The notes below the pieces were generated by a model. That model did not search any database and was not told the origin of the DNA. It saw only the letters and a program-made list of their open reading frames with translations. From positions 186,001 through 250,000 of the forward strand of contig CANMFX010000001.1 of assembly GCA_947497315.1 (NCBI GenBank): 64,000 nucleotides of DNA, written 5' to 3'. This DNA is from an uncultured Sphingomonadaceae bacterium. Lineage in GTDB: Bacteria; Pseudomonadota; Alphaproteobacteria; Sphingomonadales; Sphingomonadaceae. Below are positions 21,579 to 24,394 of this stretch, piece after piece. The number at the start of each line of letters is the position of its first letter. Within the stretch, counting starts at the first letter, position 1. Made by a program: the position numbers and the translations under genes.

Positions 21579-21597
21579 TATCACATTTGATGTGATA
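21579..21597. promoter_or_regulatory. Palindromic operator 1 upstream of ribB
   Basis: Perfect palindrome TATCACAT-TTG-ATGTGATA (8-bp arms). A possible -35 box TTGATG (21587-21592) lies inside it, 17 bp before the TATCAC at the start of operator 2, so occupancy would block the promoter. Its centre is 31.5 bp from that of operator 2. Confidence 0.65.
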
Positions 21598-21609
21598 AAG
21601 CTCTGGACG

Positions 21610-21629
21610 TATCACATTGTAATGTGATA
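21610..21629. promoter_or_regulatory. Palindromic operator 2 upstream of ribB
   Basis: Perfect palindrome TATCACATT-GT-AATGTGATA (9-bp arms), same half-site as operator 1. It overlaps the candidate -10 box (TATCAC, 21610-21615). It lies 36 bp before the ribB start codon. Confidence 0.65.
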
Positions 21630-21635
21630 GCAGTG

Positions 21636-21646
21636 TCACATAGTGA
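21636..21646. promoter_or_regulatory. Degenerate third operator upstream of ribB
   Basis: TCAC-ATA-GTGA, a shorter palindrome with the same core half-site (TCACAT), centred 21.5 bp from operator 2. The three centres are therefore spaced by about three and two helical turns. It lies 18 bp before the ribB start codon, just before an AAGG ribosome site. Confidence 0.4.
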
Positions 21647-21664
21647 ATAGATAAGGCTGCACCC

Positions 21665-22972
21665 ATGAGCAAGATATTGATAGAGCAACTGATTGAATTG
21701 ATCGATTCTGGCAAGGAAACGCGCGCTGGCTTGGCCCGCGCGGCCGGCCTTCACGCCAACAGCCTGCGGCGGCTGGGTGAGTCGGACTGGAATCCGACGG
21801 CCGAGACTTTGGGCAAGCTGGAGAAATATCTCGCAAGCGGCGGCAACAGCGTGATGGCGACGGCCGAGGAGATTATCAACGAGGCGCGCAACGGGCGCAT
21901 GTATATTCTGGTCGATGACGAAGACCGGGAAAATGAAGGCGATCTGATCATTCCGGCGCAGATGGCGACGCCCGATGCGATCAACTTCATGGCCAAATAT
22001 GGTCGCGGGCTGATCTGTCTGGCAATGGCAAGGGACCGGGTCGAGGAACTCGGCCTCGATATGATGAGCCAGAATAACCGGACTGCGCACGAAACCGCCT
22101 TTACCATCTCGATTGAGGCGCGCGACGGCGTGACCACAGGTATTTCGGCCGCAGACCGCGCCCGTACCGTGGCCGTGGCGATTGATGGTACCAAGGACAA
22201 GAGCGAAATTGTGACGCCGGGCCATGTCTTCCCGTTGCAGGCACGCAATGGCGGTGTGCTGGTGCGCGCCGGCCATACCGAGGCAGCGGTCGATGTGTCG
22301 CGGCTCGCCGGGCTCAATCCATCCGGGGTGATCTGCGAGATCATGAAAGACGATGGGGAGATGGCACGGCTTGATGATCTCATCGAATTTGCCCAGCATC
22401 ACGGGATGAAAATCGGCACGATCCGTGACCTGATCGCTTACAGGTTGCGCCATGATCATCTTGCGCAGAAGCGAGCCGAAGCGACATTTGAAAGCCGCTG
22501 GGGCGGGGAGTGGAAGGCGATTACCTTTTTCAACACCGCCACGGAGTCGGAGCAGATCGTATTGCAAAAAGGCCATGTCGATCCCGACAGTCCGACATTG
22601 GTTCGCATGCATGCCACGGCGATTTTCAGCGACGTGTTTGGAAAAACCGGTGCGCATAGCGGCACGCTGGCCGAATCCATGAAGATTATCGGTGAAGCCG
22701 GTTCCGGTATCATCGTATTCATCAGCCCGCGGATACCCGATTTCTATTCCCGTCAGGTCGCACGGCTAAAAGGCGAGAAACCGGCGGATATGGATCAGCT
22801 GCGCGACTATGGCGTCGGTGCACAGATCCTGACCGAGCTGGGCGTAAGCGATATGGAATTGCTGTCCAATACCAGCCATGACTTGGTCGGGCTGGATGCT
22901 TATGGCCTGCGCATTGTCGGCCAGCGGGCGATACCAACGGCTGCGGCGGCCAAAGAACTGGAGACAGCATAA
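21665..22972 (+). CDS. ribB: HTH-domain / 3,4-dihydroxy-2-butanone-4-phosphate synthase fusion with degenerate RibA-like domain
   Basis: 435 residues in three parts. Residues 1-58 look like a helix-turn-helix domain of the XRE/Cro type ([20 protein letters not shown], then a helix ending LEKYLAS). Residues 66-270 are the RibB enzyme, which makes dihydroxybutanone phosphate from ribulose 5-phosphate: DDEDREN (84-90), [20 protein letters not shown], and [21 protein letters not shown]. Residues about 275-435 resemble GTP cyclohydrolase II, but the zinc-binding Cys-x10-Cys-x-Cys is absent ([12 protein letters not shown] region), so this half is probably inactive, as known for other alphaproteobacterial RibBA-like proteins. 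Three phased palindromes lie just upstream. It is followed by ribH with a one-base overlap. Enzyme identity is certain; DNA binding is inferred. Confidence 0.93.
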
Positions 22973-23394
22973 TGGCAAAATTTCTGATCGTCGAAGCGCG
23001 TTTTTACGACCATTTGAACGACATGCTGCTGGATGGCGCCAAGGCCGCTCTGGAAGCAGCCGGTCATGAGCATGAAACCCTGACTGTCCCTGGCGCATTG
23101 GAAGTGCCCGGCGCCATCTCCCTCGCGATTGACAGCGGTGAATATGATGGCTTTGTCGCGCTCGGTGTCGTGCTGCGCGGTGAAACCTATCATTTTGAAA
23201 TCGTCTCCAATGAAAGCGCGCGCGGTATCATGGCGCTCACACTGGACGGAGCGGCGATTGGCAATGGGATTATCACAGTCGAGAATGAAGCACAGGCCCT
23301 CGCCCGCGCGGACAGGGAACAGAAAGACAAAGGCGGAGAAGCAGCCAAAGCGGCTGTTGCGATGTATGAACTGGGGCAGCGATTTACTGGTTGA
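22972..23394 (+). CDS. ribH: 6,7-dimethyl-8-ribityllumazine synthase
   Basis: A 140-residue enzyme that joins dihydroxybutanone phosphate (the RibB product) to 5-amino-6-ribitylaminouracil. Family blocks: [48 protein letters not shown] (including the catalytic histidine H77 or H78 region) and [18 protein letters not shown]. The start overlaps the ribB stop (TAATG), so the two enzymes whose substrates meet are translationally coupled. The length is slightly below E. coli RibH (156). Confidence 0.96.
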
Positions 23395-23406: not shown

Positions 23407-23844
23407 TCAAGTCAAAGCGATCTCAAATATGTCTGCGAATCTTTTCTTCTTGCCCATCGCATCAGACAAGGTGAATTGGTCAAGATGACAAAGGAAGGCT
23501 TCGACGGCATCGGCCAGCATATGGGAAAGGCCGCAAACCGGCGTCACGATACAATTATTGGTTGAGCCGGGGCTGCATTCCACAAACTGGCTGACCTCTT
23601 CAAGCGCGCGGACGACCGCGCCGATGTTAATCTCTGCGGGATCACGGGCCAGGGTCAATCCCCCGCCTCGCCCGCGCTGGCTGATGATGAAGCCTTCGCT
23701 GACCAGACGCTGCACGATTTTCATCAAATGGTTTTTTGAAATGTCGTAGGCGGAGGCAATATCGTCAATCGTCTGGCTGCCCTCCTGTGATGCCAAAAAC
23801 ATCAATGTCCGCAACGCATAGTCGGTCTGTGTGGTCAATCTCAT
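23407..23844 (-). CDS. nsrR: Rrf2-family regulator, NsrR-like
   Basis: A 145-residue Rrf2 regulator with an N-terminal winged helix (TTQTDYALRTLMFLA and ISKNHLMKIVQRLVSEGFI). The cluster cysteines are C90, C98 and C104 (ECSPGSTNNCIVTPVC), close to NsrR (C-x4-C-x5-C in E. coli, here C-x7-C-x5-C), and the ITP/VTPxC context also fits. NsrR uses a nitric-oxide-sensitive iron-sulfur cluster. It is divergent from a truncated haemoglobin operon, and an NsrR-like palindrome lies in the gap. Assignment as nitric oxide sensor is a good inference rather than proof. Confidence 0.85.
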   Translation of the reverse strand: MRLTTQTDYALRTLMFLASQEGSQTIDDIASAYDISKNHLMKIVQRLVSEGFIISQRGRGGGLTLARDPAEINIGAVVRALEEVSQFVECSPGSTNNCIVTPVCGLSHMLADAVEAFLCHLDQFTLSDAMGKKKRFADIFEIALT

Positions 23845-23926: not shown

Positions 23927-24394
23927 ATGCCACACGCTCACACTATTGCTGCCAGAGAAGAAAAAGCCGCTTATGCAGAAGCCCTTGGGATTACCGAAGA
24001 GCGGATTTCCGATCTGGTAGAAGGCTTCTATGAAAAGATCCGCAGCGATGCTTTGCTGGGGCCGATATTCAATGAGAAGATCACCAACTGGCCGCCTCAT
24101 CTTGCACGTATGAAGGATTTCTGGACGTCGATCGCGATTGAATCGGGCAGGTTTCATGGGAATCCAATGATCAAGCATCTGGCGATCCCGGATATCGAAC
24201 GCTCCCATTTCAATCACTGGCTTGCTCTGTTTGACCAGACATTACCTGAGGTGATGCCAAGCGCCGCTGCCTGCCAATTTCTGTCCGAACGTGCGGCTCG
24301 CATTGCTGACAGCCTGATGACCGGCATTTCCGTCCACCGCAATGGACTGCCCACCATAATGCAAAAGAAGGAGACGAATAATGTTACTCGATGA
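23927..24394 (+). CDS. Group III truncated haemoglobin
   Basis: A 155-residue globin of the trHb group III (P) type. The conserved order is: ISDLVEGFYEKIRSDALLGPIF with the distal-side Phe-Tyr, NWPPHLARMKDFWTSI, then GNPMIKHLAIPDIERSHFNHWL with the proximal histidine, and the terminal helix. Group III globins in Campylobacter act in nitric oxide and oxygen metabolism. Here an NsrR-like regulator is divergent and the operator lies in its promoter. It is the first gene of a three-gene overlapping operon, sharing 14 bp with the next gene. Confidence 0.92.
   Translation: MPHAHTIAAREEKAAYAEALGITEERISDLVEGFYEKIRSDALLGPIFNEKITNWPPHLARMKDFWTSIAIESGRFHGNPMIKHLAIPDIERSHFNHWLALFDQTLPEVMPSAAACQFLSERAARIADSLMTGISVHRNGLPTIMQKKETNNVTR

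Follow-up and report, generated by a model that had tools for sequence, protein, structure and literature searches.

Can an enzyme of riboflavin synthesis also act as the repressor of its own gene? The question is raised by ribB in the window, the whole 64-kb stretch of DNA analysed here, taken from an uncultured member of the Sphingomonadaceae. A segment resembling a helix-turn-helix (HTH) precedes the dihydroxybutanone phosphate (DHBP) synthase domain of the gene product, and palindromes lie directly upstream of the gene. A sequence-only reading of this DNA had drawn from these features an enzyme that represses itself, senses a ligand through its catalytic or RibA domain, and replaces the FMN riboswitch. 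Comparison across 149 genomes of the family, and with phage loci, separates these proposals. RibB most likely switches off its own gene in most of the sampled sphingomonads, on grounds that are throughout those of comparative sequence analysis.

The ribB gene and its product

The single PF00926 match of the 3.4-Mb genome is a gene that joins three domains and is followed by the gene for lumazine synthase.

21665..22972, + strand: ribB, 435 aa, with HTH, DHBP synthase and degenerate RibA domains
21665..21838, + strand: Cro/C1-type HTH of RibB, N-terminal, residues 1-58, recognition helix GLHANSLR
21866..22441, + strand: DHBP synthase domain of RibB, residues 68-259, motifs DDxDRENEGD and GHTE kept
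22472..22924, + strand: GTP cyclohydrolase II-like domain of RibB, residues 270-420, without zinc cysteines, RibX type
22972..23394, + strand: ribH (lumazine synthase), ATG overlapping the ribB stop codon, PF00885 E 7e-42

ribB and ribH are likely to form one operon, and a downstream ribH is recognised at 84 of 108 loci with an HTH-ribB. The nearest named relative of the window's RibB in a tree is that of Sphingorhabdus sp. EL138 (99% over 361 columns). Judged by sequence, the predicted active-site motifs DDxDRENEGD and GHTE are invariant across 79 aligned RibB proteins. Comparison with Mycobacterium tuberculosis RibBA shows that the zinc cysteines are gone from the RibA-like domain of the window's protein. 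Among 126 proteins, two of them cut short, this part holds at most one cysteine in each, and no cysteine lies near the first zinc-ligand place in the 123 proteins that have the motif. Because the domain is without these cysteines and a higher-scoring RibA match is present elsewhere in the genome, the window's RibB is assigned to the RibBX type.

Just after ribH lies a divergent pair of genes, one encoding an Rrf2-family regulator (PF02082, E 6e-36) and the other giving a weak bacterial globin match (E 8e-4, below the cut-off), at 23407-23844 and 23927-24394, respectively. At a guess, they form a nitric-oxide response pair.

Fold and family of the N-terminal domain

The HTH-like character that the sequence-only reading ascribed to residues 1-58 is borne out by Cro/C1-type Pfam models, with matches to as many as 14 of the 23 homologous N-termini. 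HTH_3, HTH_31, and HTH_26 match 14, 12, and 12 of these at E<=1, with best values of 6e-4, 2e-4, and 4e-3. The window's own N-terminus, searched alone, reaches no HTH Pfam model, and its first 67 residues are without any Pfam match. AlphaFold predictions of residues 1-60 give block-mean pLDDT values of 75-87 for the segment alone and 80-87 inside the full protein. A Foldseek search with the predicted HTH returned mostly XRE or other HTH proteins among the 50 hits listed, none at E<=0.001; these include C.EcoT38IS, HipB, P22 c2, SinR, and 434, with several probabilities of 0.85-0.96 and a maximum of 0.99. A sequence search of the PDB with the HTH profile yielded nothing significant (best E 0.11).

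Operators and promoter upstream of ribB

The region directly before the gene contains the following elements.

21579..21597, unstranded: distal operator TATCACATTTGATGTGATA, composed as TATCACAT-TTG-ATGTGATA, an exact palindrome of 19 bp with a 3-bp centre
21603..21608, + strand: candidate -35 element CTGGAC, just left of the main operator, CTGGAC or CTAGAC in close relatives
21610..21629, unstranded: main operator TATCACATTGTAATGTGATA, composed as TATCACATT-GT-AATGTGATA, an exact palindrome with a counterpart at 115 of 115 HTH-ribB genes
21625..21630, + strand: candidate extended -10 element TGATAG, within the right arm of the main operator, matching a conserved TGATA in the sequence logo
21636..21646, unstranded: third palindrome TCAC-ATA-GTGA, short and weak

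All three of the phased palindromes described earlier are thus present, with centres 31.5 and 21.5 bp apart, but the third is not conserved. It is absent from the close relatives compared and is rejected as a conserved operator; some close relatives have a ATCACATT half-site near its place. The distal 19-mer is identical in six close relatives (L158-L160, L162, L163, and L165) and differs by one change in two more (L161 and L171), and in several others it is reduced to a half resembling AATGTGATA. The consensus ATCACATN4ATGTGAT occurs exactly once in the 64-kb window and once in the 3.4-Mb genome. When up to 3 mismatches are allowed, the window holds 2 copies against an expectation of 3.1 and so shows no excess; when up to 2 are allowed, the genome holds 5, compared with 3 for a backward-read control. 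The gap-3 form TATCACATN3ATGTGATA is present once without mismatch in the window and, at up to 3 mismatches, twice, against 0.16 expected. The importance of the distal and main sites follows chiefly from their conservation in relatives.

A TTGATG/TATCAC promoter had been proposed for this region, and it gives way to a TTG-like...TGATA arrangement that is conserved in 80 relatives. In these 80 genes the site precedes the start by 25-33 bp, and conservation of its CACA and TGTG is 98-100%. The TTG-like stretch to the left of the site reads T 56%, T 77%, T 41% or G 37%, and G 51%, and TGATA at the right end of the site is conserved at 76-100% per base. Going by this pattern, the conserved promoter is more likely to consist of a CTGGAC -35 element left of the main palindrome and a TGATA in its right arm. 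The spacer of this likely promoter, from -35 to -10, is taken up by the operator, an arrangement that suggests repression. The spacing from site to ATG in these 80 proximal promoters also suggests that many HTH-ribB mRNAs have a very short leader or none.

Second half-sites are phased relative to the main operator. Across the 115 HTH-ribB genes there are 55 occurrences of a right half at -30 to -33 and 18 of a left half at +32, and in the shuffled control no offset exceeds 2 occurrences. Some second half-site lies within 60 bp in 92 of the 115 genes, compared with 23 after shuffling. This clustering at about three helical turns indicates that three-turn spacing is widespread in the family. Operator versions with gaps of 3 and 5 bp were also tried and rise barely above shuffled sequence, with one exception, the gap-3 form found at the distal position in close relatives of the window.

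Co-occurrence of the HTH and the operator

Among the matches listed for the 149 family genomes searched, ribB-type genes are found in 144 and none in 5. The 5' regions of 150 such matches (30 loci and 120 stretches) were analysed, and the N-terminal HTH is present in 115 and absent in 35. Operators were scored against ATCACATN4ATGTGAT, out of 14, within 150 bp upstream of the start; since 2 of the 35 HTH-less matches are without a usable start, 33 could be scored. A score of at least 10 is reached by 115 of 115 HTH genes and by 0 of 33 HTH-less genes, a score of at least 11 by 113 and 0, and a score of at least 12 by 95 and 0. In twenty rounds of single-base shuffling, 105 of 2300 upstream regions scored 10 or more (2 of 115 in an earlier single round). 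Within the set of 80 named loci, of which one was not extracted (L196) and one has too short an upstream region (L173), all 78 scorable loci reach at least 11, a value above the shuffle maximum of 10. Four genomes have both kinds of gene, and in these the operator is found at the HTH copy only. Co-conservation of the N-terminus and the upstream region, which had been put forward as a check on the sequence-only reading, therefore holds throughout: both are there in 115 of 115 genes and both are missing in 33 of 33.

The weight of this association depends on gene context and on descent. Of the 33 HTH-less genes, 24 come right after ribE, and 23 of these overlap the end of that gene; with little or no intergenic space the absence of an operator is partly forced in most of the set. 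No ribE is recognised just upstream of the other 9, and the operator is still absent. Before HTH genes, ribE is recognised in 35 of 115 cases, with a gap of at least 40 bp; a ribE gap of 55 bp at L285 is false, its start having been placed too far downstream. In a tree built from the catalytic part, with 79 rows of which 13 have no HTH, the HTH label requires 5 changes, compared with 12.2 for shuffled labels, and the starred branches force only 2 of the 5. That tree includes 13 of the 16 HTH-less proteins compared over their whole length, near-duplicates and L282, L284, and L285 having been left out. Because the label changes are few, the co-occurrence does not amount to 148 independent events. 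One genome (G706) encodes a second full-length HTH-RibB (L336, contig 26) in which the helix is changed to GLDSSTLRD and the operator is missing; its sister copy has both helix and operator.

The operator is nearly confined to ribB. The exact sequence TCACATTNNRATGTGA occurs at 61 places in 60 of the 149 genomes, 58 of them directly before an HTH-ribB, and its backward-read control occurs 0 times among the genomes listed. Two of the three exceptions have phage surroundings, one beside matches to an HNH endonuclease and a terminase large subunit (G101) and one in a stretch with a Peptidase_S24-type repressor (G017). The third (G103, L253 1501-1516) lies about 1.5 kb from ribB, after ribH and beside an aldo/keto reductase (PF00248).

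Phage relatives of the HTH

Profile matches place the HTH in a family of small proteins that stand alone, several of them encoded in phage or prophage loci, a relationship that is new here and absent from the sequence-only reading. Genome G017, in which both ribB matches are without the HTH, encodes a stand-alone 68-residue homolog (E 2e-19) 2.8 kb from the exact site. Opposite this gene is one for a CI/S24-type repressor. Two sites precede the start of the homolog gene, at -30 and -61, and the exact site lies on the far side as one of two further sites with a 31-bp spacing. The same gene is present in the IMG/VR viral contig L301. Further stand-alone homologs are found in viral contigs, in Pseudanabaena phage Pan3, in two more genomes of the family (L337 and L338), and in other alphaproteobacterial families. 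At six of six loci tested (L301, L337, L338, L340, L341, and L390), the divergent gene opposite the HTH matches Peptidase_S24 and operator sites lie at -30 or -33 of the HTH gene; in L301, L337, L340, and L341 the sites are at -30 and -61, and beyond the divergent repressor gene lies another pair. A tandem-site score of 19 is reached by 7 of 21 stand-alone loci, compared with 6 of 581 control windows. With a small Cro/C1 protein, a divergent CI/S24-type gene, and operators on both sides, these loci resemble the Cro/CI regions of lambda-like phages. The ribB locus departs from such regions in that its HTH is fused to a metabolic enzyme and no CI-type gene is present at the window's locus.

A profile built from 15 stand-alone proteins finds 115 of 115 RibB N-termini among 13,999 sequences, with E values of 2.6e-23 to 1.7e-12. 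Seven sequences were left out of it as doubtful or duplicate (L305, L306, L313, L314, L318, L327, and L328), and L301, the closest to RibB, was omitted on purpose. Among the best 40 of 54 other hits, the E value is 3e-8 for a general XRE protein (L328) and 5e-5 for the CI-type repressor of L301. The relationship is also apparent from the DNA. A scan of viral contigs for two tandem CACATN4ATGTG sites returned four contigs. Three of them have the HTH gene, sites at positions -30 and -61 relative to it, and another pair at a greater distance; one of these three (L343) is the L301 record, leaving two new ones that are near-identical at the promoter, and the fourth (L342) has no HTH hit. The phage promoter flanks outside the proximal site match the ribB promoter profile more closely than do all 2000 shuffled versions, a result obtained for three of three phages, two of them near-identical. 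A comparable scan for AGCATATN4ATATGCT returned at least 120 stretches; only one of 80 loci (L390) has a clear HTH hit, and most of the matches are probably chance.

Recognition helix and operator appear to vary together. The LHxN[ST]LR helix of RibB and L301 goes with the CACAT operator, as does LHPNSLY (L340 and L341); H[RH]NTL (Pan3, L337, L338, and L390) goes with GCATAT, and DTTLR (L321) with CGCAT. Together with the altered helix of the operator-less G706 copy, these examples are few in number and were picked out in retrospect, but they agree in direction. The Pan3 gene (L300, ON968454.1 28047-34214) lies on the strand opposite to the annotated genes. Since the HTH carried by Pan3 is otherwise one of alphaproteobacterial phages, the stated cyanobacterial host of this phage may deserve a check.

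Probable self-repression and alternative explanations

The reading that best accounts for these results, at a probability of about 0.84, is that RibB is both an enzyme and its own repressor, with an HTH that would be a domesticated phage Cro kept together with its promoter and operators. It follows from a phage-repressor-type HTH combined with matching sites in the gene's own promoter, and the self-repressor idea of the sequence-only reading is in this respect strongly supported by the comparison (115 of 115 against 0 of 33, and 58 of 61 exact sites); its substrate or flavin sensing is not. The HTH would descend from the Cro-type repressor of lambda-like temperate phages, retained with the early promoter and paired operators. 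DHBP synthase is active as a dimer, a form well matched to a palindromic site. A RibB dimer would present two HTHs to the palindrome between -35 and -10, and a second dimer would probably bind the site three helical turns away, perhaps cooperatively. More RibB would then mean less ribB-ribH transcription, and this dependence on the amount of RibB could hold DHBP synthase and lumazine synthase levels steady without an FMN riboswitch. Plain concentration-dependent autorepression of ribB-ribH is the simplest model and suffices.

Regulators of riboflavin genes do exist as separate proteins in other Alphaproteobacteria, for example in Wolbachia, where wBmxR1 and wBmxR2 are described in the cited excerpt as binding the ribA promoter (PMC3518464). 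A separate XRE-type protein might likewise bind the palindromes here, leaving the fused HTH with another role. This is hardly credible given that the operator is gone from all 33 scorable genes without the fused HTH, is found almost exclusively at ribB, and in phages adjoins the same kind of HTH. It is also very improbable that the HTH activates ribB. Some Cro/C1-type proteins activate, and the distal site does lie upstream of -35, but a dimer on the main site, which falls inside the likely promoter between -35 and -10, should obstruct RNA polymerase, and the phage counterpart occupies the cro position.

A refinement of self-repression, rather than its opposite, would make RibB a ligand-gated trigger enzyme whose DNA binding depends on ribulose 5-phosphate, DHBP, FMN, or riboflavin at the catalytic or RibX domain. 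Enzyme and HTH share one chain, and the X domain of Shewanella RibBX is reported (PMC10012899), in the portion of the paper drawn on here, to control the RibB part through a mechanism that is unknown. The apparent lack of an FMN riboswitch is a further point in favour of gating. RF00050 is matched in 0 of 1 for the window's own genome and, under stricter filters with which weak matches may be lost, in 0 of 149 family genomes, compared with 7 of 14 control genomes; in the window, neither this riboswitch nor another known RNA is found at ribB. Against gating, the 16 HTH-less relatives compared show the same lack of cysteines in RibX, so nothing marks it as the sensor of the fusion, and the stand-alone phage homologs have the same operators and no ligand domain. 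The RibA domain as a fusion-specific sensor is accordingly unsupported, and the earlier proposal of sensing through the catalytic or RibA domain finds no support here. Ligand gating is a possibility that we doubt more than we favour. That no riboswitch is found in 149 genomes does not demonstrate the earlier idea that self-repression replaces it, because genomes with an HTH-less ribB are without the riboswitch too.

Relation to known systems

The closest known systems include BirA and BzdR. In BzdR an enzyme fold has been recruited as a regulator (PMC3602430); its kinase-like domain is described there, in the section cited, as inactive, whereas RibB keeps its active-site motifs and has a promoter that matches the phage operators of its HTH. 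RbkR, an archaeal riboflavin kinase with an N-terminal HTH, is listed in the cited passage as a gene regulator and enzyme (PMC8305020). Like RibB, it combines a flavin-pathway enzyme and a gene regulator in one chain; unlike RibB, it is a kinase and archaeal, and that passage makes no mention of a phage origin. RibBX proteins, in which DHBP synthase is fused to a RibA-like domain without key cyclohydrolase residues, are reported from Shewanella, Aeromonas, and Bradyrhizobium (PMC10012899). They share the degenerate RibA-like domain with the window's RibB, whereas an N-terminal HTH and a ribB operator go unmentioned in the extract from that source. FMN riboswitch control likewise acts as feedback on rib genes, but by an element that was not found in the family sample. 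No HTH-RibB fusion was found in the literature, as covered by the titles and abstract openings of open PubMed Central papers. If the present reading is true, control of a core vitamin pathway in a large bacterial group would have been built from a phage repressor and its DNA sites, giving a clear route by which an enzyme becomes its own regulator and suggesting ribB control without an FMN riboswitch in these bacteria. Members of the RibBX branch could be tested as regulators, and cross-talk between a metabolic enzyme and temperate phages would be predicted and measurable.

Direction of transfer and possible cross-talk with phages

The best reading of the shared layout is that ribB captured a phage cro gene along with its promoter-operator region. 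Transfer in the reverse direction, by which the phage genes came from a host ribB, is unlikely. It draws on a short HTH tree that places phage L301 among the RibB sequences, but this tree, of 64 columns, is too short to settle the direction. Among 385 genomes sampled across the class, fused copies turned up in the window's family and nowhere else, whereas stand-alone proteins are found in other alphaproteobacterial families and on diverse phage contigs with several operator types. Phage-to-host capture is favoured because the fusions are family-restricted and the stand-alone genes are wider and more diverse.

A further-reaching version of capture is offered tentatively, as something rather improbable in full. 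A whole cassette of early promoter, paired operators, and cro would have been captured before ribB in a sphingomonad ancestor, and the fused HTH would still recognise phage operators. If it recognises those of living phages, host RibB could repress the early promoters of related temperate phages, a form of cross-talk in immunity or lysogeny, and riboflavin synthesis may conversely be influenced by phages. The phage region of genome G101 (contig 21, L275 1685-1831) contains RibB-type operators, one of them about 31 bp before the start of the terminase large-subunit gene. RibB is the only strong homolog of the HTH in that genome, and the phage gene is possibly under host RibB control.
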